Positions 7,174-56,235 of a stretch of 64,000 nucleotides of DNA are shown here, in pieces. The position numbers and the translations under genes are program-made. Each line of letters begins with the position of its first letter. The stretch's first letter is position 1. The DNA is taken from assembly GCF_000297395.2 (NCBI RefSeq), contig NZ_HF570108.1, positions 1,148,276 through 1,212,275 on the forward strand, read 5' to 3'. A model generated the notes under the pieces. That model ran no database searches, was not told the DNA's origin, and worked only from the letters and a program-made list of their open reading frames with translations. Source of the DNA: Micromonospora lupini str. Lupac 08 (lineage in GTDB: Bacteria > Actinomycetota > Actinomycetes > Mycobacteriales > Micromonosporaceae).

Positions 7174-7180
7174 CCCCCGC

Positions 7181-7268: not shown

Positions 7269-7301
7269 GATCGTCGTCAGCCACGAGAGGAGGTGAGCCC
7301 G

Positions 7302-7377: not shown

Positions 7378-7394
7378 TCCTTATCGGAGGACCC

Positions 7395-28149: not shown

Positions 28150-31100
28150 GTGCTGACGCCGGACCAGACTCGTCACCGGGGCCAGTCCCACCCGCAGAAC
28201 CAAAGGTGCCGCATGCTTTCCCGCTCCCCGTCCGCCACGGAATCGCCGGCGCTGATCCTCGACCGCGCCACCTCCCTGGTCGACTATCTGATGGCCGTGC
28301 GGGCCCAGATGGAGAAGCCGGCCCGGACGGTGCCGCAGGCGGACGCGTTCTGGCAGCACGACCTGCCGGCTCACCCCGACTGCCAGGTGGGCGTCTCCTC
28401 TGACGGCAGCAGCTGGTTGCGGGTCGGTCTGCCGCCCGCGCCGAAGCAGCTGCGGGCACCCGCCGAGTTCGGCCCGTATCTCGCCGGGCCGCTGTCGTAC
28501 GAGAGCGAACCGCGGCTGGCCGGCGACGAGGAGACGGTTGAGCGCCTCCGTACCCGGTTCGAGCAGTGGCGGGAGCGGGAGTGGCGGCCCTGGGCCGAGC
28601 AGGCCCGACGTACCGAGGCGGTCCGCAGGCTGCACCGGAGCCTGTTCGACCTGAAGCACCGCATCGACATGAACGCCGCCACCCACGAGCTGGTGTGGGG
28701 GCACGGTGTCCTGCGCACGGACGTGGTCGGGAACCGGGTGCAGTACCCGCTCGTCGTGACCCCGGTCGCCATCGAGTTCGACGCCGACCGGTCGACGATC
28801 CGGGTGGTGCCGCAGGGCGCCGGCCGGCTCCAGACCGACCCGCTGACCGGCCTCGACGAGCGGTACCTCAGCCAGCTGCTCGCGCTCGCCGGCTCCGGCG
28901 GGCAGCTCGACCTCGACGTCTGGGACGACTTCGCCCGCCAGGAGTTCCTCGAGCGGGCCCTGCGCCGCCTCGGGCTCGATCCGACCGTCCGGGCCGACGA
29001 CGCACCCGCTCCGGTCGGCCCGTACGTCCACGACACCGGCGTGCTCTTCGTCCGGCCCCGGCAGCGGATGTTGCGCCGCTTCCTCGAGGAACTCCGCGCC
29101 CGCCTGCTCAGCGGCGATACCGCGAGCATCGGTGCGCTGGCCGCCATCCTCGCCCATGAGCCGAGCCGCCTGGAAATGCCGCACGACCAGCCGGCACGGT
29201 GGGCGCCGCTGGGGGAGCGGCTGCTCATGCCGCTGCCCACCAACGAGGCGCAGGAGTCCATCGCCCGGCGGCTCGCCCAGCACCGCAACGTGGCCGTTCA
29301 GGGTCCGCCCGGCACCGGCAAGACCCACACCATCCGCAACCTGATCTGCCACCTGATGGCGCACGGAAAGCGGGTGCTCGTGGTCGCGCAGAAGGAGGAT
29401 CCGCTGCGGGTCCTGCGGGACGGCCTGCCCGAGGAGATCCAGTCGCTCTGCCTGGCGGTGCTCGGCCGCTCCACCGACCAGCTCGTCCAGCTCCAGCTCG
29501 CCGCCCGGGAACTCTCCGACCGGGGCGCCACCCTCGACAAGCGCAGCGAGCAGCAGCGGGTGGATCGGCTGCGCCGCCAGCTCGAGGAGGCCGAACGGGA
29601 CCTCAGCCAGGCGCTCGGGGCGCTGCGCACCCTGGCGGAGAACGAGTCCGCGCAGTACGAGATCGACGGCATCCGGCTGTCGCCGAGCGACGTCGGCAGC
29701 TGGCTGCGGGACCGGGCCGACCGGTACGGCGACATCCCCGACGAGATCCCACCGGACCTCGACGCGCCGCTCACCGTCGAGGAGTTCACCGACCTGCTCG
29801 ACATCGCCCGTCGTACCGCCCGTCAGGACCGCACGCAGGCGCTGCGGCACCTGCCGACGGTGGCCGCGCTGCCGACCGCCTCGGCCGTTCTCGCGGCACG
29901 GCGGGAACTCGCCGCCACCCGTGCTGAGCTGGACCGCCTCGCCGCCGCGGGTGTGGTGCTGCCGGAGGTACGGGCGTTCGGCCGGCCCGCCCTCGACGAG
30001 CTCGCCGGGCACCTGCGGGAGGCGCTCACCCTGCTGACCGCCCGGGAGGGTGCCTGGACGGACACCCTCGCCAAACTCCTGCAGGCTGACCCGAACTGGC
30101 GGGCCATGTGGGAGGACCACGTCGCCGCCTGCCAGCGGGCGCTCGCTGAACTCGCCACGGCAACCCGGGTCGTCGCTGGCCGCCGGGTGACCGTCGCCGA
30201 CCCGCATCTCGCCGAACCGCGCCGGCTGCTGGCACAGCTCGGCGACCTACGCCAGCGCTTCGCCGCCGGCAAGGGCGTCAACAAGTTCTTCCAGGGCACC
30301 CTCGCCAAGCTCGCCGCGGACTGCCGCATCGACGGTGAGGTCCTGCGCACCGCCGACGACGTCGAAATCGTCGTCGCGTACGTCAACCGTCTCCGGTTGC
30401 GGCAGGAACTTGCCACCCGGTGGACCGAGTGGCGGAACCTGCTCAACCTGCCGCAGGAACCCGGCGACCAGCCCGAACTCTGGGCCGGTCGACTGCTCAG
30501 CGACGCGGCGACCGCCCTGGACTGGGACCGCCGCCGCTGGCCCGCCCTGCACGCGACCGTCAGCCGACTGGTGCCCCGGGTCGAGCCGGCGGTCGACGTA
30601 CGCCGGCTGACCGCGCTCACCGACCTGGTCGCCCGGTGCGCGACCGTCTTCACCCACGACCGGCTCGTCGCCGAGGAGCGCGAGCTGGGCGCCCTGCTCC
30701 AGGCCGGCATGTCCACCAGCGACGCCAGCGAACTGTGGCGGCTGCTCGACCAGAGCCGACAGCAGGACGACCTGCCTGGCTGGGACGGCATCCTCGACGA
30801 GGTACGCCGCCTGGCCGGCCTGCGCCCCGACGCGCAACGGTTCACCCAGCTCGCCGACCGGCTCCGCCCGGCCGCCCCCGCCTGGACCGCCGAGATCGAC
30901 GCCGGCACCGCGTCCGCCCTCGCCGGCAGCGGCGGCGACTGCCTGCACCGCTGGCAGTGGCGCCGCGCCCAGACCTGGTTCGACACCGTCGTGGGCAGCC
31001 TCGACCCGGTCTCGCTCGGGCGCCGGGTCGAGCAGACCCGGGACCGCATCCGGCGACTCACCCAGGAACTCGTCGTCGCCTCCTCCTGGCTGGAGGTCTC

Positions 31101-34100
31101 CAAGGCCCTCGACGACCGCAGGCGGGCCGCGCTCGCCGACTGGACCACCGCCCTGAGGAAGATCGGAAAGGGTACGGGCAAGAACGCCGCCCAATGGCAG
31201 GCGCACGCCCAGCGGGCCATGAGCGCCGCCGTCGACGCCGTACCGGTCTGGGTCATGTCCGTCGACCGGGCCATCGAGCAGTTCGCCGGCGGGGCGCACT
31301 TCGACGTGGTCATCGTCGACGAGGCCTCTCAGGCGGACATGTTCTCGCTGCCCGTGCTGAGCCTCGCCGAGCGCGCCGTCGTGGTTGGCGACGACCAGCA
31401 GATCGGACCGCAGCTGTCATTCGTCGGCACGGTGACCGGCCTGATCAACTCGCACCTGGTCGACGTGCCGTCCGCCGAGCACTTCGACCCGGAGAGCAGC
31501 CTGTACGACCACGCCGTCCGTCGCTCCCCGGAGCGCATCCTGCTGACCGAGCACTTCCGGTCCGTGCCGGCGATCATCGGCTTCTCCAGTGAGACGTACT
31601 ACGGCGGGGAGATCGAGCCGCTGCGCACCGACCGGCCCGCCGGCATCGGCGACCCGGTCAACGCCGTGCATGTGCCCGACGGCATCCGCCAAGGCCTCAT
31701 CGGCTACGGCGATGTCAACGTCCCCGAGGCTGAAGCCCTCGTCGCACGGGTCGCGGCGATCGTCGCCGACCCGGCCTACGGGGGACGCAGCATCGGGGTG
31801 GTCAGCCTGCTCAGCACCAGCGGACAGGCCCTCTACCTGCTCACCCGCCTCCGCGAGGAGGTCGGCGAGGAGGAGATGGAACGGCGTCGGCTGCGCGTCG
31901 GCGACTCGTACACCTTCCAGGGCGACGAGCGGGACGTCGTCCTCGTGTCGATGGTCGTCGAGCCGCATCACGGCCCGGTCTCCGCCTTCACCAAGCGCGA
32001 CCACCACCGGCGGGTCAACGTCGCCGCCTCCCGCGCCCGGGACCAGCTGTGGGTGTTCCACTCAGTGCAGCCGGCCGACCTGCGCGAGGACGACGCCCGC
32101 GGGCTGCTGCTCACCTACTGCCAGAACGTCAGCCCCGTCGACGAGGCGTACGACGACCTGGAGAAGCGCTGTGACAGCGACTTCGAACGCGAAGTGCTGC
32201 GCCGTATCCTGCGTCGCGGGTACCGGCCGCTGCCGCAGTTCCGCATCGGCGGGTACCGGATCGACTTCGTCCTGCCGGCGCCCGACGGCCGGCGGCTGGC
32301 CATCGAGTGCGACGGCGACGCCTACCACGGGCCGGAGCAGTGGGAGAGCGACATGCGCCGGCAGGCGGTGCTGGAGCGGGTCGGCAACTGCGTCTTCGTG
32401 CGGATCCGGGGGAGTGTGTTCAGCCGGGACCCGGAGGCGGCAATGGAGCCGCTCTGGCAGCGGATCGACGAGCTGGGTATCGTCGTTCCGCCTAACCCGC
32501 CGGCGCCGCCGACTCCACCCCATCGGCCTGGCCCGGGGGGCGGCACGCTCGTCCGAGCGCGGTCCGCACTGCCCGGTCCGCGCATCGGCCCGGCAGCACC
32601 CTCGTGGTCGTCCGCACCGGTGCCGCCCGAAGCGGCCTTGAGGGCCGCTCAGGGCAGCACTGCCGTAGCCGTGGCAGGCAGGATCTCGCCGGTGCGGGAC
32701 GTTCCGCTCGTGGCAGAACCGGCCGAATTCTCTGCACGCCCGGCAGCGGTGGGGATTCTCCGCGACCAGCTACCGTCCACACCGTCGCCCACGTTGGTCC
32801 ATGCGCCGTCCGAGACGGAGACGGTGGGCGGAGGACCTACCCCGCAAGCAGTGGCTGCACCTGACTCGTCATCCGACTCGGAGACGCTCCCGACCGCCGA
32901 AGCATCCGCCAATCCTCCGGTCGAGGCCGCCGTCCTCGAACTGCCCTGCTCTCGCGTGGTGAAGGCGGAGATGCCGGCCAACGACGTGGTGGCGGAGCCT
33001 CCACCGCTGAGCGGGGGACCGATGGTGGTCACGCCCTCGCCGCAGCGGGTCACCGCAACGAAGGCAGCGCCACTCGTCACGGACCCGTTGGTGGACGAGC
33101 TGCGCACGATGCTCGACCGGCGTGGTGCACGAGCGGCGCAGTCGGTCGTAGCCGACTTCGTTGCCCGGCACCGGTTGACCAACCGGCAGGTCGATGCGCT
33201 GGTGGTCGCGCTGCTCCGAAAGCCCTCGCACGCGGCACCGCAGGAGGATCCGCCTGCTACGACGGGCCCGTCCATCGACGGTTCAACGGCGGATGGTGCA
33301 GAGGGCAGTTCCGAGCCGGCGGAACTCTCGGAGGCCCAGGCCGACGCATCGGACGTCGAGGCGGCACAGGCCGAGAGCGATGGCCCGGCGGACGACGACC
33401 TCGCATGGATGTTCGGAGGTGACTCGCAGGGCTTAGCAGCGAGAGCGGTCGATGACGTCGTAAGTCAGACGTTCGACGACCTCCTAGGTGACTGGGTACG
33501 TAGCGGTCAGCTGAGCCGTGCCGACGTCGCCTTGCTGGCCACGAAGCGGAAGTTGTCGTCGGCGCAGCACGGCGAATTGCTGAGCCTGCTGGAGGACGCG
33601 GGCGTCGAGCTTCCACGGTCGACGGACGTTCGACCGAAGCAGGCTGCGCCCAAGGGGTACGAACATGACGGTGACTCCGTCGGCCAGTACCTGCGGGCAA
33701 TTAGCCGTCTCCCCCTCATCGGCGCGTCGCGCGAGGTCGAACTGTGGTCGCTGATATCTCAAGGCGTCGCTGCTCGGAAGGAGTTGGAGGCTGGAGGTAA
33801 AGAGCTGGCGCCGAGCGCCCGCTTGAGTCTCGAACGCCGCGTAGCGGACGGAAGGCGCGCACATGCAGAGCTGGTTTGCGCCAACTTGCGATTGGTGGTC
33901 TCGATCGCCAAGCAGCGCCACTACGACCGCAGCGGCGTCGAGTTCGCTGACCGGATCCAGGACGGCAACATCGGCCTGATGCGGGCCGCCGACAAGTTCG
34001 ACGGATCGATGGGCAACAAGTTTTCGACGTACGCGACCTGGTGGATCAGGCAGAGCATCGATCGGGGCGTCGCAGACCGAGGAAGAACGATCCGCATCCC

Positions 34101-34647
34101 GGTTCACCTGCACGAAAAGGCGCGGAAGGTTCGCAGGGCGGTCTCGAGACTGACGTGGAAGCTCGACCGTGAGCCCACCTTGGCGGAGATCTCCGAAGAG
34201 ACGGGCGTTGAGCCCGGATCTGTTCAGGCGATCCTCGATCTCGATCGCCCGCTGGTCAGCATCGACATGCTGCTCGGAGAGGAGGGCGACCTACGCCTGT
34301 CGGACATCCTGCTCGACGACGACAACCGCGATGGGCGGACAGATCCTGCCGAGGTCGTCATCCACGCCATGTTCAGTACCGATGTCGCCCGCGCTTTGGC
34401 CGCGCTTCTGCCGGACCGGGCTGTCCGCATCCTCGAACGCAGGTTTGGTTTCGGAACTGGCGAGGAGGAGACGTTGGACGCCATCGGTGCCCACTTCAAC
34501 GTCACCCGTGAACGCATCAGGCAGATCCAAGGAAAGTCGTTGGCGACGCTGCGGGAGAGCGAGGAGGCCGTGGCGTTGCGGTCGTACCTGGTCGACGATT
34601 CGAAGGCCGGCGAGTTCGGCGTTCCCGTGAGGAGGAAGGCGTCATGA
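28150..34647 (+). CDS. SF1 helicase - PD-(D/E)XK-like nuclease - sigma-70 factor fusion protein
   Basis: A 2165-residue protein from GTG 28150 (ATG 28213 is possible). Residues 1-1340 form a UPF1/Dna2-like SF1 helicase: Walker A GPPGTGKT (385-392), a long helical insertion, VIVDEASQ (about 1054-1061), GDDQQIGPQ, TFQGDERDVVLVSMV and VAASRARDQLWVF. Residues 1340-1440 resemble the DUF559/MTES_1575 nuclease fold with Asp1372 (RIDF) and Glu1386/Asp1388 (IECDGD). After a Pro/Ala linker and a sigma-1.1-like helical block (about 1776-1822) comes a nearly complete primary-type sigma factor (1835-2146). It has FSTYATWWIRQ in region 2, TIRIPVH, a region 3.2-like acidic finger and the VTRERIRQI helix of region 4. 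It heads the DISARM-like operon; drmA starts within its stop codon (ATGA). The helicase-nuclease should act on phage DNA; the sigma part's job is unknown. Confidence 0.9.
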   Translation: MLTPDQTRHRGQSHPQNQRCRMLSRSPSATESPALILDRATSLVDYLMAVRAQMEKPARTVPQADAFWQHDLPAHPDCQVGVSSDGSSWLRVGLPPAPKQLRAPAEFGPYLAGPLSYESEPRLAGDEETVERLRTRFEQWREREWRPWAEQARRTEAVRRLHRSLFDLKHRIDMNAATHELVWGHGVLRTDVVGNRVQYPLVVTPVAIEFDADRSTIRVVPQGAGRLQTDPLTGLDERYLSQLLALAGSGGQLDLDVWDDFARQEFLERALRRLGLDPTVRADDAPAPVGPYVHDTGVLFVRPRQRMLRRFLEELRARLLSGDTASIGALAAILAHEPSRLEMPHDQPARWAPLGERLLMPLPTNEAQESIARRLAQHRNVAVQGPPGTGKTHTIRNLICHLMAHGKRVLVVAQKEDPLRVLRDGLPEEIQSLCLAVLGRSTDQLVQLQLAARELSDRGATLDKRSEQQRVDRLRRQLEEAERDLSQALGALRTLAENESAQYEIDGIRLSPSDVGSWLRDRADRYGDIPDEIPPDLDAPLTVEEFTDLLDIARRTARQDRTQALRHLPTVAALPTASAVLAARRELAATRAELDRLAAAGVVLPEVRAFGRPALDELAGHLREALTLLTAREGAWTDTLAKLLQADPNWRAMWEDHVAACQRALAELATATRVVAGRRVTVADPHLAEPRRLLAQLGDLRQRFAAGKGVNKFFQGTLAKLAADCRIDGEVLRTADDVEIVVAYVNRLRLRQELATRWTEWRNLLNLPQEPGDQPELWAGRLLSDAATALDWDRRRWPALHATVSRLVPRVEPAVDVRRLTALTDLVARCATVFTHDRLVAEERELGALLQAGMSTSDASELWRLLDQSRQQDDLPGWDGILDEVRRLAGLRPDAQRFTQLADRLRPAAPAWTAEIDAGTASALAGSGGDCLHRWQWRRAQTWFDTVVGSLDPVSLGRRVEQTRDRIRRLTQELVVASSWLEVSKALDDRRRAALADWTTALRKIGKGTGKNAAQWQAHAQRAMSAAVDAVPVWVMSVDRAIEQFAGGAHFDVVIVDEASQADMFSLPVLSLAERAVVVGDDQQIGPQLSFVGTVTGLINSHLVDVPSAEHFDPESSLYDHAVRRSPERILLTEHFRSVPAIIGFSSETYYGGEIEPLRTDRPAGIGDPVNAVHVPDGIRQGLIGYGDVNVPEAEALVARVAAIVADPAYGGRSIGVVSLLSTSGQALYLLTRLREEVGEEEMERRRLRVGDSYTFQGDERDVVLVSMVVEPHHGPVSAFTKRDHHRRVNVAASRARDQLWVFHSVQPADLREDDARGLLLTYCQNVSPVDEAYDDLEKRCDSDFEREVLRRILRRGYRPLPQFRIGGYRIDFVLPAPDGRRLAIECDGDAYHGPEQWESDMRRQAVLERVGNCVFVRIRGSVFSRDPEAAMEPLWQRIDELGIVVPPNPPAPPTPPHRPGPGGGTLVRARSALPGPRIGPAAPSWSSAPVPPEAALRAAQGSTAVAVAGRISPVRDVPLVAEPAEFSARPAAVGILRDQLPSTPSPTLVHAPSETETVGGGPTPQAVAAPDSSSDSETLPTAEASANPPVEAAVLELPCSRVVKAEMPANDVVAEPPPLSGGPMVVTPSPQRVTATKAAPLVTDPLVDELRTMLDRRGARAAQSVVADFVARHRLTNRQVDALVVALLRKPSHAAPQEDPPATTGPSIDGSTADGAEGSSEPAELSEAQADASDVEAAQAESDGPADDDLAWMFGGDSQGLAARAVDDVVSQTFDDLLGDWVRSGQLSRADVALLATKRKLSSAQHGELLSLLEDAGVELPRSTDVRPKQAAPKGYEHDGDSVGQYLRAISRLPLIGASREVELWSLISQGVAARKELEAGGKELAPSARLSLERRVADGRRAHAELVCANLRLVVSIAKQRHYDRSGVEFADRIQDGNIGLMRAADKFDGSMGNKFSTYATWWIRQSIDRGVADRGRTIRIPVHLHEKARKVRRAVSRLTWKLDREPTLAEISEETGVEPGSVQAILDLDRPLVSIDMLLGEEGDLRLSDILLDDDNRDGRTDPAEVVIHAMFSTDVARALAALLPDRAVRILERRFGFGTGEEETLDAIGAHFNVTRERIRQIQGKSLATLRESEEAVALRSYLVDDSKAGEFGVPVRRKAS

Positions 34648-37600
34648 GCGGCGTGGGGGACCAGTCTCTGGAGCAGGCCTGCGAGGCGTTCGTCGACTGG
34701 CTCGACCGGCGGGTGGTGGCGGCGGGCCGTGGCGACGGTTTGAGCCGTCTCGAGGTGGCACCCTCCGGCACGTTCTGGCTGGGCCGTCTCGCCTGCGAGG
34801 ACGAGGTGCGCAAGGACGCCCCCGACGATCGGTCGGAGCGTCTGGACCCATGCGCGATCGCCATCCGGCTCCGCCCTGCGGCGGCGCCACCCTGGTCGAT
34901 GACGGTGATCGTCCGGGCGCGAGCGTGGGTGAAGGATCCGAAGGACGGGCCGGACCCCGACCGGCGCTGGTGGCGGACGGACCTCGTCGAGGAGGTCGTG
35001 TCGGTCCTGGTCTCCGGCGAGGGCGAAACGTTCGGCGGCAAGCAACTCCGGGATGCATTCGCCGCGGTGGGTGCCCCCGGTCTCTCCGCCGAGGTGCGGG
35101 TGGACGTGGAGGACTGGCATCGGCAGACCGAAGTCGTGGTGCAGCTGGTCAACACGAGCCCGGAGAAGGCGCCCGGCCTGACCGACTCCCACCTGTACGA
35201 GACGCAGCTCGAAGTCTCTGGCCTTCCTACCGTGCCGTTCGAGCTGGAGGCGCTACCGGACAGCTTCCGATACGACCGGAAGGTGCCGGCCTACGGAGTG
35301 AACGTCGGCGTCGAGGTAGTGGCACCAGGCGTGTTCCGCACGTCGGACACCGTGGGCGTGCAGACCTACCGTCCCGACTACTGGAGTGGCGCAGCTCCGC
35401 AGCCGGATCTATCGTTCACGAGGCTCGCATCCGACCCGCTCCCTCAGCTCCAAGCCTTGGTCGATGCGCTCGACGCGTACGACCACATCCATTGGTCTTC
35501 GACAGCTCTCGATGCTCGGCAAGTCGCCGAGGGCTGGACGTTGACCATGCGAGCCAAGGCCGACGAGTCTGCCGAGCAGGTGTTCGAGGAACTGAATAGG
35601 CTCCGGGCCGGTCTCACGCTGCTAGGGGACCGACCTGAGATCCTCCGCTCCTTCCGGCTGATGAACAAGGCGATCGCCCGTAGCGCCGAGGGGCGCGGGT
35701 ATACCACCTGGCGGCCGTTCCAGGTCGGCTTCCTGCTCTCGGCCATCCGCTTCCTCGCCGAGCCGGAGGACGAGGCGAGGTACGTCGACACGGTCTGGTT
35801 CGCGACCGGTGGCGGCAAGACGGAGACCTACCTGGGGTTGCTCCTGACGGCGGCGTTCTTCGACCGCCTCACCGGCAAAGCCCTGGGAGTGACGGCCTGG
35901 TCGCGCTTCCCGCTGCGGTTACTGAGCCTCCAGCAGACCCAGCGGTTCGCCGACGCTCTGGCCGGCGCGGAGATGGTGCGCCAGGAGGAGGGCGTCAAGG
36001 GCGCACCCTTCAGTCTCGGGTTCCTCGTCGGTCGCGCGGGAACGCCCAACAAGATCGTGCCGAAGACCGAGACCGACGAGATCACCCCGGACAGCCCAGG
36101 CATGCCGGACAAGTACCGCGTGCTGTTGCACTGTCCCTTCTGTCGGGACGAGAACCTCCAGATGCGCTTCGACCGCCAGCGGTGGAAGCTCGACCACCGC
36201 TGCACGAACCGGAGCTGCCCCTGGAAGGGGCAGGCCCTGCCGATGTACGTCGTTGACCAGGAAGTGTTCAGGTTCCTGCCGACGGTGGTGGTCGGCACCC
36301 TCGACAAGGCCGCATCGATCGGTCTGCAGCAGGCGATGCGCGGCCTCGTGGGGGCGCCACAGAAGCTCTGCCCAGTGGAATGGCACGGCTTCACGTACGC
36401 GGAGCGGTCCAAGAGCCCCAACGGCTGTCTGGTGCCGGACTGCCAGGGCGGCAAGGCCCTCAGGCCGCTGCCCATGGACGCCAAGCGGTTCGGCCCGTCA
36501 CTGCGGCTGCAGGACGAGTTGCACCTGCTCCGGGACAGTCTCGGCGCGGTCGATTCCCACTACGAGAGCCTGCTCGATCATCTCCAGTTCGAGCTGTGTG
36601 GCACTCGGGCGAAGATCGTGGCGAGCAGCGCGACGTTGACCGGATACGAACACCAGACCAAGGTCCTCTACCAGCGGGAGGGGCGGGTCTTTCCGCAGCC
36701 GGGCCCGCGAGCGGGTGAATCGTTCTGGACGACCCCGACGGAGAAGCCGTTGCGGCGGTTCGTCGCCGTCGCGCCCCGTGGCGTCACGTTGGAGCACGTC
36801 AGCGACCGGACGCTCGACGCCTTGCAGCGCTGCGTCCGCCAGCTCAAGGACGACCCTGCGACCGTGTGTGCCGAAGCCGGCATCGACCGGAAGTACGTGG
36901 ACACGCTGGTCAGCCTCTACGGCACCGACGTGGTCTACGGCTCGACGCTCTACGACGTGGAAGCTGCCGGGCGAAGTCTTGGCAGCAACAACACGGTCGA
37001 GGGCATCAACGTCGAGCAGCTCACCGGGCAGACCGAGTTCGACGACGTCCGGGCCATCCTGGACCGGTTGGAGAAGCCGGAGGAGGACTTCGCCGAGCGG
37101 ATCCACGTGGTGGCCGCCAGTTCGATGCTCTCGCACGGTGTCGACGTAGACCGGCTGAACACCATGGTGATGCTGGGCCTGCCGCTGACGACTGCCGAGT
37201 TCATCCAGACCACGGCGCGGGTCGGTCGTAGGCATCCTGGCCTGGTCTACGTCCTGCACAAGATCGGCCGGGAACGCGATGCGCAGACGTTCCGGCAGTT
37301 CACGCAGTACGTGCGGCAGGGCGACCGCTTCGTCGACGCCATTCCGATCACGCGTCGCAGTCGCCGGGTCCTGGACCTCACCGTGGCTGGCGTCGTGGGC
37401 GCACGGACGTTGATGATCCGCGAGCCGGCCAGCAAGCAGCGGCTCAGCACGCCGGCGAAGCTGCGCCAGTACGCGCGTGATTCCGGGATGACGCCCGCGG
37501 CCGAGGCAGCCGCAGTGGCCAAGGTCCTGGGCCTCGACGGGGCGGAGGACTCCCTGCATCGCGAACAGATCGCCGATTGGCTGCAGGCTTGGTTCGCCGA

Positions 37601-37706
37601 TCTCGAAGACCCTGCCACCAAGGCCACGTTCGTCAGCGAACTGGGCCCCCGATCACCGATGACGAGCCTCCGAGACGTCGAGGCCAGCGCTCCCATCCAC
37701 GACTGA
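34644..37706 (+). CDS. drmA: DISARM helicase DrmA
   Basis: A 1020-residue SF2 helicase-domain protein. The N-terminal 370 residues contain no familiar motif. Helicase motifs follow: WFATGGGKTETYLGL (Walker A about 387-394), RLQDELHLL (QDEL at 623-626 in place of DEAD/DEAH), VASSATLTGY and the motif VI region TTARVGRRHPGLVYVLH. A cysteine cluster (HCPFCRDENL, CTNRSCPWKG) lies between motifs I and II. QDEL, the cysteine insert and the partner DrmB downstream mark DrmA. In characterised DISARM, DrmA and DrmB form a DNA-loading complex that blocks entering phage DNA. ATG 34644 overlaps the previous stop. Confidence 0.88.
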   Translation: MSGVGDQSLEQACEAFVDWLDRRVVAAGRGDGLSRLEVAPSGTFWLGRLACEDEVRKDAPDDRSERLDPCAIAIRLRPAAAPPWSMTVIVRARAWVKDPKDGPDPDRRWWRTDLVEEVVSVLVSGEGETFGGKQLRDAFAAVGAPGLSAEVRVDVEDWHRQTEVVVQLVNTSPEKAPGLTDSHLYETQLEVSGLPTVPFELEALPDSFRYDRKVPAYGVNVGVEVVAPGVFRTSDTVGVQTYRPDYWSGAAPQPDLSFTRLASDPLPQLQALVDALDAYDHIHWSSTALDARQVAEGWTLTMRAKADESAEQVFEELNRLRAGLTLLGDRPEILRSFRLMNKAIARSAEGRGYTTWRPFQVGFLLSAIRFLAEPEDEARYVDTVWFATGGGKTETYLGLLLTAAFFDRLTGKALGVTAWSRFPLRLLSLQQTQRFADALAGAEMVRQEEGVKGAPFSLGFLVGRAGTPNKIVPKTETDEITPDSPGMPDKYRVLLHCPFCRDENLQMRFDRQRWKLDHRCTNRSCPWKGQALPMYVVDQEVFRFLPTVVVGTLDKAASIGLQQAMRGLVGAPQKLCPVEWHGFTYAERSKSPNGCLVPDCQGGKALRPLPMDAKRFGPSLRLQDELHLLRDSLGAVDSHYESLLDHLQFELCGTRAKIVASSATLTGYEHQTKVLYQREGRVFPQPGPRAGESFWTTPTEKPLRRFVAVAPRGVTLEHVSDRTLDALQRCVRQLKDDPATVCAEAGIDRKYVDTLVSLYGTDVVYGSTLYDVEAAGRSLGSNNTVEGINVEQLTGQTEFDDVRAILDRLEKPEEDFAERIHVVAASSMLSHGVDVDRLNTMVMLGLPLTTAEFIQTTARVGRRHPGLVYVLHKIGRERDAQTFRQFTQYVRQGDRFVDAIPITRRSRRVLDLTVAGVVGARTLMIREPASKQRLSTPAKLRQYARDSGMTPAAEAAAVAKVLGLDGAEDSLHREQIADWLQAWFADLEDPATKATFVSELGPRSPMTSLRDVEASAPIHD

Positions 37707-37718: not shown

Positions 37719-39458
37719 ATGACGGTCCTCGGATCCCGCAGCGGCAGCCAGATCCTGCGTACCTTCCTCCCCGACCAGACGGTCGACCTCCGCGGCGACA
37801 TCTACCGGGTCGCGGAGTGGTCCGCGCCCAGTCCCATCCTGGTCGACACCGATCTCGTACGACGCCACCTGCTTCATGAGGTCAGCGCGTGGTCGAAGGA
37901 ATTCGACAGCGGCGTTGTCGACGACCTGATGCGGAAAGCTCCTGTCGAAGTGGTCGAGCTCGACGAGCGACGCGGCGTCACCGTCGAGCGGTATCCGCAG
38001 GTGTGGCTCTGCCGGACGTGCAAGCGCATCGGAAAGTCCATCGACCGGCCGTGCAAGTGCGGCCAGCGCAACAAGTGGGGCCAGCTGCACTTCGTCGGCG
38101 TCCACGAGTGTGGCGCAATCGCCGAGCCATACATCAAGAGGTGTCCGACGCACGACGACGTCAAGGTCGTGATTCCCAAGAGTGCCAAGGCTGCCGACAT
38201 CACGTTCGTCTGCCCAGTTTGTAGTGCACAGACCATGCAAGGGCTCGGCTTCAACAAGCCCTGCGCATGCGGGAATGGCAAACTCCGCTGGAACGTGCAC
38301 AAGGCCCGCATGGTCTACACGCCGCGGGGCATGGTGTTGATCAATCCACCGCGACCCGAGCACCGGGAGGGGCTCAAGCTCGCCGGTGGTGCTCGCAAGG
38401 CGTTGGTCTGGGTGGTCGATGGGTTGGCGGTGGCCCGGCCTGCCGACGTGGTTTCACCGCCGACCCTCGAAGAACTGATCGAGCAACTCATGCGTACCGG
38501 TCTTCCTCGGGAGATCGCGGAGGTTGCCGCGAAGAGCGCTGCCGATCAGGGGGGACTTGCGAAGGCCGGCGACCACCCGATCGACGGGCTCTCGGGCGAA
38601 CGGCGCGAGGAAGCAGAGCGGGAAGCGGTCGACATCGCCATGGCGCTTGCGGAGAGTCGCACGCCGACGACGGCACCGCGCAGTGCGACGCCCGGTGACG
38701 CCCTGGACGTGCGTTACCGAGACCGCTACCCGGCGGCGCTCGACCGGGCCGGGATCGACGGCCTGGACCTCGTCGACCGGTTCCCGGTGCTGAACGCGAT
38801 GTACGGCTACACGCGGGGCGAGGACGACCCGTCGAAGTGTCGGCTGGTGCCCTTCCGCCGGAAGAAGGGCGGCTATCGGCTCTACGGCAACCTCGCCGAG
38901 ACGGAGGCCTTCCTGGTCCGCCTGGACCCGGTACGGGTCGCCACCTGGCTGGTGGGGAGAGGGCACCGGTTGCCGGGATGGACCTCCGGAGACGGGGCGG
39001 TTGCGGCGCGAGTCGCGATCCTGCAGGAGGTGCAGGTGCCGTCCAAGCGTGACGACCCGTCGGTCGAGTCCGCCGGCACCGACCTGCTCAAGCTGGTGCA
39101 CACCTACGCCCACAGGTTCATTCGGCAGGCCGCCGTCTTCTCGGGGATCGAGCGGGACGCGTTGAGCGAGTATTTGGTACCCGGTCACCTGGGCTTCTTC
39201 GTCTACGCCGCCGCTCGTGGTGACTTCGTGCTTGGCGGCATGCAGGCGGTGTTCGAGTCGAACCTGGACGAGTTGCTCGACGCGTTCGTCGACGCAGAGC
39301 ACCGCTGTCCACTGGATCCTGGGTGTGCCCGTGGCAGTGGCGCGTGCAGCGCTTGCGTCCATCTGGGGGAGCCGTCATGCCGGTTCTTCAACCGTTTCCT
39401 GGATCGAAAGGTGCTCTTTGGGACCAACGGATACCTGCGTACGCCGGTCAGGGCGTAG
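37719..39458 (+). CDS. drmB: DISARM protein DrmB (DUF1998)
   Basis: A 579-residue protein starting 12 bases after drmA. The N-terminal half carries many zinc-type cysteines (CRTCKRIG, CKCG, CPTHDD, CPVCSAQT, CACGNGKLRW). The C-terminal half is DUF1998: LLKLVHTYAHRFIRQAAVFSGIERD and a final cysteine cluster CPLDPGCARGSGACSACVHLGEPSCRFFN. DrmB partners DrmA in DISARM. The usual next gene, drmC (phospholipase D-type nuclease), is missing; its place is taken by a convergent vsr gene whose 3' end overlaps drmB by 11 bases. Confidence 0.88.
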   Translation: MTVLGSRSGSQILRTFLPDQTVDLRGDIYRVAEWSAPSPILVDTDLVRRHLLHEVSAWSKEFDSGVVDDLMRKAPVEVVELDERRGVTVERYPQVWLCRTCKRIGKSIDRPCKCGQRNKWGQLHFVGVHECGAIAEPYIKRCPTHDDVKVVIPKSAKAADITFVCPVCSAQTMQGLGFNKPCACGNGKLRWNVHKARMVYTPRGMVLINPPRPEHREGLKLAGGARKALVWVVDGLAVARPADVVSPPTLEELIEQLMRTGLPREIAEVAAKSAADQGGLAKAGDHPIDGLSGERREEAEREAVDIAMALAESRTPTTAPRSATPGDALDVRYRDRYPAALDRAGIDGLDLVDRFPVLNAMYGYTRGEDDPSKCRLVPFRRKKGGYRLYGNLAETEAFLVRLDPVRVATWLVGRGHRLPGWTSGDGAVAARVAILQEVQVPSKRDDPSVESAGTDLLKLVHTYAHRFIRQAAVFSGIERDALSEYLVPGHLGFFVYAAARGDFVLGGMQAVFESNLDELLDAFVDAEHRCPLDPGCARGSGACSACVHLGEPSCRFFNRFLDRKVLFGTNGYLRTPVRA

Positions 39459-39882
39459 CAGGAGGCACCCGGCGCCGCCATTCGGCCTCCACTCGGTCGG
39501 CGGCGGCGTCGGTGGCCTCGTGCTCCCAGACGTGCAGCGCCAGCCAGCCCAGCTCGGCTAGGGCAAGGTCCTTGGCGCGGTCGCGGGCCACGTTGCGGTC
39601 GAGCTTTTGCTGCCACCAGTCCCGGTTGTTGCGAGGCAGGGTGCCGTGCTCGGGGCAGCGGTGCCAGAAGCAGCCGTCGACGAAGACCGCCACCTTCGCC
39701 CGGGTGAAGGCCAGGTCGGGGCGTCCGGGCAGGCCGGGATGGTTCACCCGGAAGCGAAGGCCGCGGCGGTGAAGCTCACGACGCAGCGACAGCTCGGGCT
39801 TCGTGGAGGCACGAGGCATTCGCCGGAACCGGGCGGAGGTCGCGGCGTCCAGAGGCCTTGGCAAGGTGGACTTTCGGTCCAT
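39448..39882 (-). CDS. vsr: Very short patch repair (Vsr) endonuclease
   Basis: A 144-residue T:G mismatch nicking endonuclease. Diagnostic segments are RMPRASTKPELSLRRELHRRGLRFRVN, LPGRPDLAFTRAKVAVFVDGCFWHRCPEHG and RNVARDRAKDLALAELGW. The catalytic Asp lies in RPDLAF and the zinc/His elements in the CFWHRCPEH region. Vsr repairs mismatches formed when 5-methylcytosine deaminates, so it normally accompanies a cytosine-5 methyltransferase; one is encoded about 17 kb away at 57434-58531. It is the only minus-strand gene in the locus and is divergent from drmD. Confidence 0.93.
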   Translation of the reverse strand: MDRKSTLPRPLDAATSARFRRMPRASTKPELSLRRELHRRGLRFRVNHPGLPGRPDLAFTRAKVAVFVDGCFWHRCPEHGTLPRNNRDWWQQKLDRNVARDRAKDLALAELGWLALHVWEHEATDAAADRVEAEWRRRVPPATP

Positions 39883-39932
39883 CTCTCCAACCTATCCGGG
39901 GACATCATGAAAGATCATTCATAGTTAGGCTC

Positions 39933-39956
39933 CGAGGGAAATAACATCTTCCCTCG
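39933..39956. promoter_or_regulatory. Perfect 8-bp inverted repeat in the vsr/drmD divergent promoter region
   Basis: CGAGGGAA (39933-39940) and TTCCCTCG (39949-39956) flank an AT-rich 8-base spacer, 17 bases before the drmD GTG. The whole 90-base gap (39883-39973) is unusually AT-rich for this window. It may be an operator for a repressor or a hairpin in the drmD leader. AGGGA/TCCCT half-sites recur at 61874-61898. Confidence 0.45.
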
Positions 39957-39973
39957 CATTAGGTGCCCTTTTC

Positions 39974-42889
39974 GTGACGAATGCAAAGATCGCCCCGTCA
40001 GTGGCCGTGAAGGCCGACCTCAAGGGTGCATACGCTCCAGGCTCGGTCGTGGTGATCCGCGACGAGGAGTGGCTCGTGCGGGCGACCGAGAAGACCACCG
40101 ACGGCACCTTGCTCCACGTCCAGGGCCTCGGCGAGTTGGTTCGCGACGCCACCGCCTCGTTCTACGACAGCCTCGACGTGGTGACTCCTTTGGAGCCGTC
40201 GGCAGCCCGGGTCGTCGCTGATGGCAGTCCGCGGTATCGCACCGCCCGGCTCTGGCTGGAGTCGACGATCCGCAAGACCGCCGTACCACTCGGGGAGGGT
40301 TCGCTCTCCGTGGCGACCCGCGGACTCGCCGACGTGCTCAGCTACCAGCAGGCTGCGGTCCGTAAGGCGCTGGACCGCCAGAACCTGCGCCCAAGGATGC
40401 TGCTCGCCGACGCGGTTGGCCTCGGTAAGACCCTCGAGATCGGCATGATCCTCGCGGAGCTGGTCCGCCGTGGTCGCGGTGATCGGATCCTGATCGTGAC
40501 GCCGCGTCACGTACTCGAGCAGATGCAGCACGAGCTGTGGACGCGATTCGCGCTTCCGTTCGTCCGCCTCGACTCGGCCGGCATCCAGCGGGTGCGGCAG
40601 AAGCTCCCGGCCACCCGCAATCCGTTCACCTACTACAAGCGGGTCATCATCTCGATCGACACCCTGAAGTCCGACAGGTACGTCGCGAGCCTGCGGAAGC
40701 ATCGCTGGGACGCCGTCGTCATCGACGAGTCGCACAACCTGGCGAACGCCACGACACTGAACAACCGGCTTGCGCGGCTGCTGGCGCGGAACAGCGAGGC
40801 GCTCGTCCTCGCCTCGGCGACCCCGCACAACGGCCGAGCGGAGTCGTTCGCTGAGCTGATCCGACTGCTGGACCCGTCAGCCGTCAGGCCGGACGGAGAA
40901 CTCGTCCCGGACGAGGTGCGGCGACTGGTGGTGCGGAGGCATCGGCATAGCCCAGAGGTCGCGCAGGTCGTCGGCGCCGACTGGGCGGAGCGGCAGGAGC
41001 CGAACAACGTCCTGGTGCCGGCGACGCCAGCGGAGAACGCTGTGGCTGAGGAACTGGAGCAGACGTGGCTATGGCCCGGCAAGGGCGGTAGCCCCTACTC
41101 GGGGAAGACCGCTTCACTCTTCCCGTGGACCCTTGCCAAGGCATTCCTCTCCTCGCCGGCGGCGCTGAAGGAGACGATCGAGGCACGGCTGGGCCGGCTT
41201 AGTAACGACGACAAGGGAGACCCGGAGCGGCAGGCGCGCGAGTGCGAGGCGCTGGAAAGGCTGGCCGCGCTCAACGAGAAGACGCTCAGGCAGCGCTCTG
41301 CGAAGTACACCCGGCTCGTGGCGCACCTGAAGGACTGCGGGGTCGGCCGCGGCTCTCCCGCCCGCGTGGTCGTGTTCGCCGAGCGCCTGGCGACCCTGAG
41401 CTGGCTGCACCGGAACCTGCCGAAGGATCTCGGCCTGCCCGCCGAGGCGGTGCAGATGGTACGCGGTGGGGAAGACGACGAGCAGCAGCGCATCGTGGAG
41501 GAGTTCAAGCAGGAGCAGGCGGCGGTACGCGTTCTCGTCGCCGGTGACGTGGCGTCCGAGGGCGTCAACCTGCACGCGCAGTGCCACGAGCTGGTCCACT
41601 ACGACATTCCCTGGAGCCTTATCCGGATCGAGCAGCGCAACGGCCGTATCGACCGATACGGGCAGAAGCATCCGCCGCGGGTGACGGCTCTGCTGCTGGA
41701 CCCTGCGAGTCGGCGCTTCGCCGGTGACGTGCGGATCCTCGCGAAGCTGGTGGAGAAGGAGGACGAAGCCCACACCGCGCTAGGTGACGCTGCCTCGCTG
41801 ATGGGCTGCTACGACGTCAAGGGCGAGGAGGACCAGATCCGTGACGTCCTCGCCGGCAACAAGCAACTCGACGATGTGGTACGCCCGCTGGCAGCGGTGG
41901 CGGCTGGCAACGACCTGGCAGCCATGTTCGCCCAGATGTTCGAGGGGCCGAGCGAGCAGCCCGCCCAGCCGGCCGAGGACCAGCCGGAAGCCGGCCTAGA
42001 CCTCGACTCGGGCCTCTACGACGACGACGTCTCCTACCTGGAGGACGCGTTGCAGGAGGCATTCATCGATCCGACGGCGCAGCCGAGCCGCGGTGGTGTG
42101 GGCTGGCGTCGAGACGAGGCCTTCGGCACCGTAGAGCTGAGTCCTCCGCCGGACCTTGTGCAACGCCTGGAGGTGCTGCCGCAGGCGTATCTCGCCGAGC
42201 GCAAGGTGACCGAGCGGCTGGTGCTCGCCACGACCCAGGTACGCGGCAAGGACCGACTGGCTGCCGCACGCCGGGAAGACAAGATCTCCTGGCCGGACGC
42301 CCACTACCTCAGCCCGTTGCACCCCGTGCTGGACTGGGCAGCCGACCGGGCACTGGCAGCGCTGGGCCGGAACGAGGTCTTCGCCGTACGCGGCACCGTC
42401 GAGGCTCCGACGGTGCTGCTGCTGGGCACGCTGACCAACCGGCGCGGCCAGGTCGTCTCTACCGCCTGGCTGACAGCGGAGTTTCCGACACCGGCGAACC
42501 CATCCTTCACGCTGATCTCTCCCCATGAGTCGGCTCGGGCGGCGCTGCGGGCCTTCGGCTGGGACACCGCACGCAACAATCCCGCGCCTGTCACGGATGT
42601 CGAGGCGCTGAGCGAGCTGGTGGCTCCTGCCGTCCACCAAGCGGAGAGCCACCTGCTCAACGTCTTCAAGGCAGCCGAGCGGGACGCAGGACAGCTGGTC
42701 GAGGAGTGGACGCGGCGGTTGGACCACTGGGACGCAGAGGCCGATGTGCTCATTCAGCGCAGCGACCTCAAGCAGCGTAGGACGAGCGTGGAACAGGAGA
42801 AGGCGCTGGTGCAGGCGATGGCTCCCGACCGCCAGCTCGTACGGCCGCTGCTAGTGGTCGTGCCGGACGTGGAAGGTGGTAAGTGGTGA
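39974..42889 (+). CDS. drmD: DISARM SNF2-like helicase DrmD
   Basis: A 971-residue SNF2/SF2 ATPase with Walker A LLADAVGLGKTLEIG (Asp146 onward), VIDESHNLAN (DESH about 251-254), LASATPHNG and the C-terminal helicase motifs VFAERLATLSWL, AGDVASEGVNLHAQC and RIEQRNGRIDRYGQ. DrmD is specific to class 1 DISARM and is normally followed by the DrmMI methylase, as here. GTG 39974 is used. The stop overlaps the methylase start, giving translational coupling. Confidence 0.88.
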   Translation: MTNAKIAPSVAVKADLKGAYAPGSVVVIRDEEWLVRATEKTTDGTLLHVQGLGELVRDATASFYDSLDVVTPLEPSAARVVADGSPRYRTARLWLESTIRKTAVPLGEGSLSVATRGLADVLSYQQAAVRKALDRQNLRPRMLLADAVGLGKTLEIGMILAELVRRGRGDRILIVTPRHVLEQMQHELWTRFALPFVRLDSAGIQRVRQKLPATRNPFTYYKRVIISIDTLKSDRYVASLRKHRWDAVVIDESHNLANATTLNNRLARLLARNSEALVLASATPHNGRAESFAELIRLLDPSAVRPDGELVPDEVRRLVVRRHRHSPEVAQVVGADWAERQEPNNVLVPATPAENAVAEELEQTWLWPGKGGSPYSGKTASLFPWTLAKAFLSSPAALKETIEARLGRLSNDDKGDPERQARECEALERLAALNEKTLRQRSAKYTRLVAHLKDCGVGRGSPARVVVFAERLATLSWLHRNLPKDLGLPAEAVQMVRGGEDDEQQRIVEEFKQEQAAVRVLVAGDVASEGVNLHAQCHELVHYDIPWSLIRIEQRNGRIDRYGQKHPPRVTALLLDPASRRFAGDVRILAKLVEKEDEAHTALGDAASLMGCYDVKGEEDQIRDVLAGNKQLDDVVRPLAAVAAGNDLAAMFAQMFEGPSEQPAQPAEDQPEAGLDLDSGLYDDDVSYLEDALQEAFIDPTAQPSRGGVGWRRDEAFGTVELSPPPDLVQRLEVLPQAYLAERKVTERLVLATTQVRGKDRLAAARREDKISWPDAHYLSPLHPVLDWAADRALAALGRNEVFAVRGTVEAPTVLLLGTLTNRRGQVVSTAWLTAEFPTPANPSFTLISPHESARAALRAFGWDTARNNPAPVTDVEALSELVAPAVHQAESHLLNVFKAAERDAGQLVEEWTRRLDHWDAEADVLIQRSDLKQRRTSVEQEKALVQAMAPDRQLVRPLLVVVPDVEGGKW

Positions 42890-45800
42890 GCGGGTCTGAC
42901 GCGATCATCGTCGGTGAGGGTTGGATCTCGGAGCACTACTTCACCACCGAGGCGAAAGGTGAGTCGTTCCGCGCGGAGGTCAAGAAGCGCCGGGACGAGT
43001 GGGACGCCGAGGCGAAGGCGGGCCGGGAGACGCCGCGGTCGCGGTTCGTTGACGCGCGCCAGAAGCTCGAGGCCGAGCTCGCGAAGCTAGCCGAACTGCT
43101 CGACCCGAGCGAGCGCAGAGAGGTACGCGAGGGCCGCGACACCGACGGCCGCAGCCCTGACGCGGTGGCGGCAGGGGTGCACCGTCACATGCTCGACGTA
43201 CTGGAGTTGCGGGGACACGGCCTCGTCCTCGACCAGGAGGGGCCGCTGTGGCGGGTGTCGTCGCCCGGCATCACCGATCGCGCGCCGCTGGTCGTGGTCT
43301 CCGCACGACCGGTCACCACGGTCGAGGAACTGTTGGTTCGCGACGCAGTGACGCTGCCCGAGTCGGTGAGGCTCACCGACGACGGGGACGAGCTGAAGTC
43401 CGCGGCCCGCTTGGTGTCGGCGCTCTTCGTCGCCGACGACGCTCCGGACCTGATCCTCGTGCTCGCCGGCCGATGGGCGCTGCTCGCCGAGCGGGAGCGC
43501 TGGGCCGAGGGACGCTACCTCGCCGTCGACGTGCAGCTCGTCTGCGAGCGCAACGACGGCAAGAAGGGTGGTGAGATCGACCGGGCCCTGACCTGCCTCT
43601 GTGCGCAGTCGATCGCGCCGGACGCCGACGGCAAGCTGTGGTGGCACAACATCCTCGAAGCCTCGGTCAAGCACACCGTCGGCGTCTCGAAGGACCTGCG
43701 CGACGGTGTCCGCCTCTCCATCGAGATCATCGCCAACGAGGTCGTCAACCGCCGGCGTGACCAGGGGCTCGACCCGCTGCCGGCAGGTGAGGCCCAGCCG
43801 CTGGCGAAGCAGTCGCTGCGTTTCCTCTATCGCATCCTGTTCCTCCTGTACGCCGAGGCGTCGCCCGAGCTGGGCGTGCTGCCGGTAGGTGCGCCGGAGT
43901 ACGACCAGGGCTACAGCCTGGACCGGTTGCGGGAGCTGGTCCAGGTGGAGCTGGCCACGCCGCGCGCCCAGAACGGCACTCACCTCTACGACTCCCTCGG
44001 CGTGCTGTTCCGGCTGGTCGACCTCGGCCACTCCACGGCCACGGCCGTCGTGGAGGACGATGACAGTGATGGACCTGCGAGCGCGCAGGGCTTGACGTTC
44101 AACGCGCTCAAGGCGGATCTGTTCCGGCCGGAGGCGACCGCGCACATCGACGCGGTCGGGCTGGGCAACCAGGCGATGCAGAAGGTCCTCTCCCACCTGT
44201 TGCTCAGCAAGGAGGCGCGGGGCAAGGACCGGGGCTTCATCTCGTACGCGGAGCTGGGCATCAACCAGCTTGGCGCGGTCTACGAGGGTCTGATGTCGTA
44301 CACCGGGTTCTTCGCCGAGACCGATCTTTACGAGGTCGCCAAGAACGGCGACGCGTCGAAGGGCTCGTGGGTGGTGCCCGCCGAGCGGGCCGAGGGGATC
44401 ACGCCGGCCGACTTTGTGAAGACGGTGCATCCCGTGACCGGTGAGCTGCAGCCGGTGGTGCACGAGCAGGGCTCTTTCGTGTTCCGCCTTGCCGGACGAG
44501 AGCGCCAGCAATCGGCGTCGTACTACACCCCGGAGGTGCTGACCCGGTTCACCGTCGGGCAGGCGCTGGAGGAGCTGCTCGACCAGGACGGGCAGCAGAA
44601 CACCGCCGCCGAGATCCTGGAGATGACCGTCTGCGAGCCTGCCCTTGGGTCGGGCGCGTTCGCCATCGAGGCGGTGCGGCAACTCGCCGAGCAGTACCTC
44701 AAGCGTCGCCAGGTCGAGCTGGGCGAGCGGATCGACCCTGACGCCTACCCGCGCGAACTGCAGAAGGTCAAGGCATACATCGCGCTGCACAACGTGTACG
44801 GGGTCGACCTCAACGCCACGGCCGTTGAGCTGGCAGAGATCTCGCTCTGGCTCGACACCATGGTCGACGATCTATCTGCACCGTGGTTCGGGCTGCACCT
44901 GCGACGCGGCAACTCGCTGGTCGGCGCGCGGCGGGCCGTGTACCGGCGCAGCCAGGTGAGTGACAAGTCGTGGCTGAGTGAGATAGCGCGCGAGTTGCCG
45001 CTCACCGCACTGGCCGAGGACGTCGAGGCGGGTCGGGTCGCCGGCGACGGCGTCCACCACTTCCTGCTTCCCGCCGAAGGTTGGGGCGCCGCTGCCGACG
45101 CCAAGGAGGCCGCCGCAATCGCGCCGGATGCGGCCAAGCGTCTGAAGAACTGGCGACGTGGTGTGAAGGTGAAACCAGCCAGGCAGCAGGTCGAGGCACT
45201 GGTCGAGCTGGCGCACCGGGTCGAGGTGCTGTGGCAGATCACCTACCGCCGCCTACAGATCGCCCAGCAGGAGATCCGCCGTGCCATACCTGTATGGGGG
45301 AAGGACGACCTTTCCTCTGGCGGTGCCGTGCAACGTGAGCAGATCGAAACCGAACTGGCCGACGTCAACGGGTCCTACCAGCGACTACGTCGGGTCATGG
45401 ACGCCTGGACGGCCCTCTGGTTCTGGCCACTCACCGACGAGCCGACCACGGTCGACGGGGTACGGGTCGAGCCGCCCACTTGGACGGAGTGGATCGCCGG
45501 CTTGCGGGCATTGCTCGGCCGCGCCCACGACCTACGACCGGAGAGGACCAAGGTCAAGGCGTCGACTGGCCAGCTCAGTGCCGCGACGGACTGGGAGGAG
45601 CTGAGCCAGGCCGAGCAGATCGACCTAGGGTTTGCACACGCCAAACCGGTCGCCGAGGTGCTGCGCGAGCACCCGTGGCTCGTGGTGTGCGAGCGGGTCG
45701 CGGAACAACACGGCTTCTTCCACTGGCACCTGGACTTCGTCACGGTGTTCGCCAAGGGCGGCTTCGACCTCCAGGTCGGTAACCCGCCGTGGGTTCGACC

Positions 45801-56113: not shown

Positions 56114-56235
56114 GCGGAGGTCGGGGAGGCAGGTGCCCGCCAGCAGGCGAGCGAAAGGATCGGGACCGTGGCGGCGGCAGCTGGCGGAAGTTGCGGCTGT
56201 GCCCGCGGTCGAAGGGCATGCAAAGGAGCGCATCG

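Follow-up and report, generated by a model that had tools for sequence, protein, structure and literature searches.

A sigma factor joined to a helicase-nuclease in Micromonospora and encoded at the head of DISARM-related drmA-drmB operons in actinobacteria

In a 64,000-nucleotide stretch of the Micromonospora lupini Lupac 08 genome (the whole of which is called the window hereafter), a single open frame on the forward strand (28150-34647, 2165 amino acids) encodes an SF1 helicase, an MTES_1575-type nuclease and a primary-type sigma factor. The original prediction, made from the letters alone, had described one frame with a helicase, a nuclease and sigma regions 2-4, and this is confirmed by Pfam matches, by the open frame itself and by joined relatives. 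The start codon is likely the ATG at 28213 and not the GTG at 28150, because the relatives P0001 and P0121 start at MLSRSP..., which is window residue 22. The parts of this gene and the genes that follow it are listed below (coordinates within the window, strand in brackets).

28213..32489 (+): helicase-nuclease half, SF1 helicase (AAA_11/AAA_12) with MTES_1575 nuclease of PD-(D/E)xK type; PDC-S37 1e-52
32490..33021 (+): proline-rich linker behind the nuclease domain; site of C-terminal tail exchange
33022..33600 (+): N-terminal portion of the once separate sigma protein, with two three-helix modules and an acidic linker that bears a conserved WMFG-type motif
33673..33744 (+): sigma-70 region 1.2, match slightly below cut-off
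33874..34086 (+): sigma-70 region 2 (core binding, -10 recognition, melting; FSTYATWWIRQ); Pfam
34114..34329 (+): sigma-70 region 3; Pfam
34408..34557 (+): sigma-70 region 4, with the -35 recognition helix VTRERIRQI; Pfam
34644..37706 (+): DrmA-like helicase, its start overlapping the sigma stop codon (34644); DrmA 3e-102
37719..39458 (+): DrmB-like protein; DrmB 1e-31
39448..39882 (-): Vsr-type endonuclease, on the opposite strand
39883..39973 (no strand): divergent vsr/drmD gap with -10-like hexamers, TAGGCT toward drmD and TAGGTT toward vsr
39974..42889 (+): DrmD/BrxHII-like SNF2 helicase, ArmA-like; DrmD 8e-92, BrxHII 6e-55
42883..47631 (+): type IIG/DrmMI-like DNA methyltransferase, ArmB-like
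47622..53978 (+): DruE-like helicase with MrfA-type zinc-binding domain, ArmC-like; DruE3 1.5e-78; DEAD, Helicase_C, MZB
53975..56113 (+): UvrD/GajB-like helicase, ArmD-like
56191..57222 (+): HNH_2 endonuclease

In the helicase half, Pfam placed AAA_11 at residues 364-428 and AAA_12 at 1116-1303, and the MTES_1575 nuclease matched residues 1345-1439 (1e-26). Helicase and nuclease reach to about residue 1446, a proline-rich linker comes next, and from about residue 1625 the frame encodes a whole sigma protein; homology with helicase-nucleases that carry no sigma stops at 32415-32492. The profile search of the C-terminal part against sigma families that had been proposed as a check returned Sigma70_r2 (1909-1979, 6e-15), r3 (1989-2060, 2e-13) and r4 (2087-2136, 3e-13), all of which exceed the Pfam cut-offs. 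Region 1.2 (residues 1842-1865) scored 19.7 bits in the whole protein and 21.6 bits in the sigma part alone, with a cut-off of 22. The Pfam model of region 1.1 (PF03979) had no match in the sigma part, and its place is taken by the second of the N-terminal three-helix modules, which resembles region 1.1 in its position alone.

Among solved structures, those closest in sequence are HrdB and SigA from actinobacterial holoenzymes, and the best match is HrdB of a Streptomyces holoenzyme (E 1e-64), which is colinear over regions 1.2-4. The likeness to these principal sigmas spans regions 1.2-4, and the sigma part is 41-43% identical to the host's three nearest sigmas. It differs from HrdB and SigA in an acidic residue at the T440 position, in its own N-terminal modules, in its link to a defense operon and in having no Pfam region 1.1. 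A structure model (20 relatives) gave confident sigma domains whose mutual arrangement is uncertain (mean pLDDT, the predicted local confidence, 70.5; pTM, the predicted global score, 0.33). Foldseek ranked sigma chains first for this model (E 5e-18 and weaker), with low TM-scores of 0.22-0.27 by query length in the best 50 rows.

The residues that contact the -10 and -35 elements are retained in nearly all of 20 aligned relatives, as expected from the original prediction. In E. coli numbering, the equivalents of W434, Q437, E585, R586, R588 and Q589 are present in 20 of 20 sigmas, and those of W433 and R584 in 19, with L036 deviating at both. Position T440 is occupied by Asp or Glu in 19 of the 20 (by Leu in L050), whereas the host's three closest sigmas have Thr in two cases and Ser in the third. 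Between the window and G030, another genome of the genus, the ratio of nonsynonymous to synonymous substitution rates (dN/dS) is 0.134 for the sigma part and 0.199 for the helicase-nuclease half; seven other sigma pairs gave 0.168-0.375. The sigma part is under purifying selection, and its sequence predicts that it binds host RNA polymerase.

The expectation that this gene heads a defense-type operon was borne out; DrmA, DrmB and further genes lie downstream. The methyltransferase matched DrmMI at 6e-54, type IIG models scored higher, and PglX itself reached only 1e-6; the open reading frame of the DruE-like gene opens at 47172, and its start is probably near 47622. The DrmA-, DrmB-, DrmD- and DrmMI-like proteins recall class 1 DISARM, but in the window the sigma comes first, Vsr is present, and drmA and drmB stand ahead of drmD and the methyltransferase. 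DrmC of DISARM (PLD type, PF13091) had two matches in the genome and none in the window. From 39974 to 56113 the gene order is that of type II ARMADA, namely a BrxHII/RapA-like helicase, a methyltransferase, a DruE-like helicase and a GajB-like helicase; no sigma is mentioned for ARMADA in the portion of the source cited here (PMC12458937). The fused domains that the same portion gives for type II (Vsr on the C terminus of the YprA homologue, RelE-like on the N terminus of the GajB homologue) had no Pfam match on the corresponding proteins of the window, the source having compared structures (PMC12458937). The helicase-nuclease half resembles PDC-S37, a PADLOC candidate that likewise combines an SF1 helicase with a nuclease; the window protein differs in its sigma tail.

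It had also been supposed that a complete sigma factor was unknown among antiphage proteins described so far. This was wrong, as mzaA is described, in the part of the paper cited, as a sigma factor of the validated multigene system mzaABCDE (PMC9523054). The PADLOC MzaA model matched the fused protein at 1e-45, with profile positions 411-667, and the match is confined to the sigma part. The other Mza proteins, MzaB-E (including MzaB, MzaC and MzaE), were not among the matches listed, up to 25, for each operon protein; the partners in the window operon differ, being DrmA/DrmB and ARMADA-like genes, and no helicase-nuclease fusion is mentioned for Mza in the part cited (PMC9523054). A literature search at the level of listings found no report that ties a sigma to DISARM, ARMADA or helicase-nucleases.

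We searched 160 genomes of the genus (in the GTDB sense, including Salinispora) with the sigma part, which gave nine loci at E <= 1e-72. A drmA-like and then a drmB-like gene follow the sigma directly in all nine. Two of the sigmas are fused (in G000, the window genome, and G030) and seven are separate genes, with open frames of 515-627 amino acids. When a DrmA alignment was run against named genomes, 18 close loci were found, five of which also belong to the first set (L040, L041, L042, L044, L046), in Dactylosporangium, Pilimelia, Plantactinospora, Haloactinopolyspora, Saccharothrix, Salinispora, Actinoplanes (Paractinoplanes), Amycolatopsis, Micromonospora, Kutzneria, Kineococcus, Actinopolymorpha and a Pseudonocardiaceae bin. 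A sigma lies immediately upstream of drmA in 17 of these 18 loci and is fused in none; in L035 the sigma frame reaches the edge of the sequence read, and the promoter motifs described below lie within that frame. The remaining locus, a drm operon of Salinispora oceanensis (L049), has no sigma in the 23 kb covered. For both sets combined, 21 of 22 distinct loci have the sigma, 19 as a separate gene and two fused. The 18 loci are close relatives because the search patterns were drawn from sigma-bearing loci.

With the PADLOC DrmA model, 15 of 396 actinobacterial genomes had matches, two of them close (G000 and G085). Four sigma queries (E <= 1e-6) found no sigma at any of the 13 distant DrmA loci (28-35% identity) in the stretches read, which for L120 cover about 0.9 kb upstream of the DrmA match. 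A sigma as a general component of DISARM is ruled out by this result. The close, sigma-bearing loci represent a DISARM-related subtype that occurs across many actinobacterial genera. The Kineococcus locus (L050) contains Vsr and a C5 methyltransferase, the latter named by eye. At 3482-8014 of this locus a separate helicase-nuclease gene (AAA_11, AAA_12, MTES_1575 1e-29) stands directly upstream of a separate sigma, drmA, drmB and vsr.

The fusion is found beyond the window. G030 carries the same joined frame, as do five named database proteins of Micromonospora (P0001-P0005, of which P0005 probably comes from G030), and the sigma parts of the named entries are 83-97% identical. Because of these co-linear homologues of the whole protein, which the original prediction had suggested looking for, the fusion is no accident of assembly, and an assembly or frame artefact is ruled out. 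That prediction had also allowed that the sigma might always prove to be a separate gene in homologues and the fusion an artefact. The first part came half true, as 19 of the 21 loci with a sigma have it as a gene of its own and fusion is not the family-wide state; the fusion is nevertheless genuine. It is also derived, and the N-terminal part of the separate sigma protein is still present within the fused one.

We built trees of both halves. The sigma tree included P0022, P0050 and P0054 as rows; eight of its rows exceed the length of a sigma by far, their only trimming being by column filling, and the host's three sigmas are absent from it. In this tree the fused Micromonospora sigmas form a single clade (support 100), whereas in the helicase-nuclease tree the window and P0001-P0005 are scattered over five places. 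Given one sigma clade and five helicase-nuclease positions, the fusion would most simply have arisen once and then recombined with other helicase-nuclease alleles.

The helicase-nuclease itself is more widespread, being found in 26 of the 160 genomes at E <= 1e-100. The copy in a near relative, G122, shares 97% protein identity with that of the window and lies at the same chromosomal site, where the flanks match to the left and right (solidly over 26.5-32.4 kb and 59.0-64 kb, in patches over 17.9-26.3 kb). Between breaks at 32.4-32.5 kb and about 59.0 kb, the window's 32.49-58.99 kb is replaced in G122 by a different tail together with a Mza-like operon in convergent orientation (two MzaB, MzaC, MzaE). 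This operon (L100, 4656-18369) includes a 914-amino-acid protein of no assigned family, about 128 residues of which match the tail region of other helicase-nucleases at 45-49%. Upstream of the fusion lie a GmrSD-type type IV restriction gene (24181-26019, +) and, at 26110-27477 (-), the C-terminal half only of a DUF3427 helicase/type IV restriction protein (profile 460-919 of 945). The truncated gene was ruled out as an insertion junction, since most of this stretch is also present in G122.

We compared 22 close helicase-nuclease loci (20 unfused and two fused; five more distant matches lie outside this set). The sigma tail with the drm operon occurs in two of them. Tail A is present in 14, with an adjoining Mza operon in eight, a distant Mza-like one in one and no Mza operon in reach in the remaining five, two of which are near a contig end. 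Six loci are tail-less and have neither operon. Tail type tracks the neighboring operon (Fisher p 0.015, uncorrected for kinship). One TGA interrupts the match in four of the 22 loci. G085 has both the helicase-nuclease and the sigma, as separate genes about 136 kb apart. In Actinoplanes relatives, helicase-nucleases are joined to an arginase-family domain (PF00491; P0203, P0206, P0209 and others).

The exchange of a whole block at one site between the window and G122 raises the question of whether the fusion is a by-product, that is, a cassette exchange whose left end chanced to fall into the linker of the helicase-nuclease, leaving two halves that do not cooperate. The rarity of the fused form, which is confined to G000 and G030 among the 160 genomes, would fit this explanation. 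We consider it improbable, however, because the joined frame persists in five named entries besides the window, both halves of the window/G030 pair are under purifying selection, a different sigma clade occurs on other helicase-nucleases, and in Kineococcus the helicase-nuclease and the sigma adjoin as separate genes.

Upstream regions were compared for 18 separate sigma genes (16 of the 17 found by DrmA, plus G130 and G085); L050 was left out because its start is unclear, and four members are close Salinispora kin. The motif GAAYN4GTTC precedes the start by 72-97 nt in 12 of the 18, and TTGTCR-N11-TANNNT, a PafBC-type pattern, is found about 25 nt beyond this LexA-type box in 10. The first agrees with the LexA consensus of Streptomyces, tCGAAC-N4-GNNCGa, as given in the cited part of PMC9380542, where an initial search is reported to have suggested that S. 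venezuelae does not conserve the PafBC motif. The second shares its spacing with the mycobacterial LexA-independent promoter tTGTCRgtg-8nt-TannnT, as given in the portion cited, with the GTG lost (PMC5656591). Across 17 loci (377,711 bases), GAACN4GTTC occurs at 17 sites, nine of them at the sigma-gene promoter, and TTGTCR-N11-TANNNT at 11 sites, again nine at that promoter. The control in the window's own genome was weak for both motifs, with 10 sites for the strict LexA box against six for the reversed control, and 10 for the TTGTCR-type pattern against nine. One CGAACACATGTTCG box in this genome is located at a dinB-like start. Three of the 10 TTGTCR sites, near-identical to each other, lie just before three similar genes, presumably 13E12/DUF222-like, and one more lies before another gene that we take to be ligA-like.

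Neither the LexA-type nor the PafBC-type motif occurs anywhere in the fused window, and the fused version appears to have left the damage-type promoter of the separate sigma genes. At L049, the close locus without a sigma, both motifs stand before drmA, as if the sigma was lost and the promoter stayed. Because the motifs are kept without the sigma, this operon need not depend on the sigma for its transcription. A sigma-type promoter ahead of the sigma gene was rejected as a candidate; by eye, none is conserved in the 18 upstream regions, and the LexA- and PafBC-type motifs are found there instead. In the vsr/drmD gap, TAGGCT is present in 11 of the 13 gaps with vsr and AACCTA in seven; both occur together in six, 37 apart in five and 35 in one. 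No -35 element conserved by eye was found in this gap.

The first of the roles originally proposed for the sigma, switching on the locus during infection, is weakened by the motifs at most separate sigma genes, by their retention in L049 and by their absence from the fused window. A fuller form of this idea is a dedicated transcription factor, in which a sigma made upon DNA damage brings host core polymerase to promoters of the locus (such as the vsr/drmD gap) or to other promoters of the host, adding a second step to induction, and the fusion merely ties the amount of sigma to that of the helicase-nuclease. The kept promoter-reading residues, the TAGGCT hexamer in 11 of the 13 vsr-bearing loci and the regulated-looking promoters of the separate sigma genes agree with it. 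So does the acidic T440-position residue, which, being specific to the clade, suggests a shifted -10 preference. It is harder to reconcile with the lack of a conserved sigma-type promoter seen by eye before the sigma gene, with the damage-type motifs and the TAGGCT before drmD that L049 retains without a sigma, and with four Salinispora loci that retain the sigma without a match to drmD. We think this explanation unlikely, though still to be taken seriously. Competition for polymerase, also proposed at the outset, would have the sigma displace the principal sigma from core polymerase and so starve phage (or host) transcription, with the helicase-nuclease as an independent activity on the same chain. 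A primary-type sigma with a conserved core-binding region and damage-type promoter motifs could serve this end; competition alone, however, needs neither conserved -35 readers nor a fixed link to DrmAB, and we regard it as very unlikely.

Other helicases carry tails of a polymerase-associated type. We surveyed 120 listed relatives of P0112, the best 120 of 2249. Sigma regions 2-4 occur in four of these (P0112, P0236, P0247, P0248), partial sigmas in three more and a GerE-type domain in three. A GreA_GreB domain is annotated on four helicase-nucleases (P0264, P0349, P0350, P0353; precomputed annotation), and our own scan confirmed P0264 and P0349. The four P0112-type sigma tails form a clade of their own (99), apart from the window-type sigmas, with the L047 sigma on their side (81), and distant helicase-nucleases apparently gained a sigma independently. 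W434 is replaced in the tails of P0236, P0247 and P0248; E585 and R588 are also changed in P0247 and P0248, and Q589 additionally in P0247. Such loss of the -10 and -35 readers could be tolerable for a mere polymerase dock. Sigmas are also joined to a DpdF-like helicase (P0055) and to PbeA-like helicases (P0059, P0105), and a regulatory role leaves this repeated joining, to helicase-nucleases as well as to DpdF-like and PbeA-like helicases, unexplained. Chimera-like long sigma matches (with rpoB or primase domains, such as P0058, P0080 and P0022) were excluded from the argument. P0055, P0059 and P0105, like P0073, P0101 and P0107, join sigma-70 to DEAD-type helicases, and very large sigma proteins (P0008, P0030 and similar) occur in Ktedonobacteria (about 1340 amino acids) and in cyanobacteria (2100-2500 amino acids, some with AAA_22).

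We tentatively favor a reading, to which we would give slightly less than an even chance, in which the sigma serves as a polymerase dock and likely loads the defense helicases onto promoter-opened DNA. Steering of the nuclease to promoter-melted DNA had been among the roles first proposed and is the one that we tentatively favor. Docking is preferred over control of the operon because of the near-constant link between sigma and DrmAB, the promoter kept without a sigma in L049, and the repeated sigma and Gre-type tails on helicases. Sigma-70 bound to core polymerase opens promoters. The operon's sigma, together with host core polymerase, would open promoters on phage DNA, and the single-stranded promoter bubble would give DrmAB its way in. 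In Serratia, according to the section cited, DrmAB binds DNA that is single-stranded or has a 5' tail and does not bind duplex (PMC9142583). In the Micromonospora fusion the tethered helicase-nuclease would be carried to the same opened DNA, and host DNA would be spared, we assume, by the operon's methyltransferase. The versions with a separate sigma gene would be induced by DNA damage, acting through LexA and through control of the PafBC type. Everything in this mechanism beyond sequence, gene order and selection is what we infer. A wider proposal seems possible but doubtful, namely transcription-bubble-loaded restriction, in which the operon's sigma makes polymerase open invading DNA and so loads DrmA/DrmB and the tethered helicase-nuclease, with nucleases docked on RNA polymerase having been assembled repeatedly (by sigma, possibly by Gre-type domains).

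Several observations weigh against docking as we favor it. The intact -10 and -35 readers fit a plain transcription factor equally well, and the confidence of the structure model is high locally and low globally (pTM 0.33). DrmAB operons without a sigma exist (L049 and the 13 distant loci). In four Salinispora loci sigma, drmA and drmB are present and the remaining operon genes had no match, as judged from about 14 kb past drmB in three and about 6.6 kb in G022, with open reading frames listed for two of the four. Membership of the sigma clade is insecure for the two most diverged sigmas, L047, which falls on the opposite side of the sigma tree (support 81), and L050, which has a long branch. 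A GreA_GreB domain does not by itself prove that a protein binds polymerase. Finally, chromosomal promoters would also be targets, and protection by methylation is an assumption.

The cassette exchange at this site means that a single helicase-nuclease swaps its C-terminal tail along with its partner operon, and the joining of a sigma factor to a restriction-type helicase has happened on more than one occasion. The sigma-led operons of many actinobacterial genera define a subtype related to DISARM that brings its own sigma factor. If the sigma is a dock, DrmAB, which needs single-stranded DNA, would gain a natural entry point, and host transcription would become the route by which defense enzymes find and enter foreign DNA.

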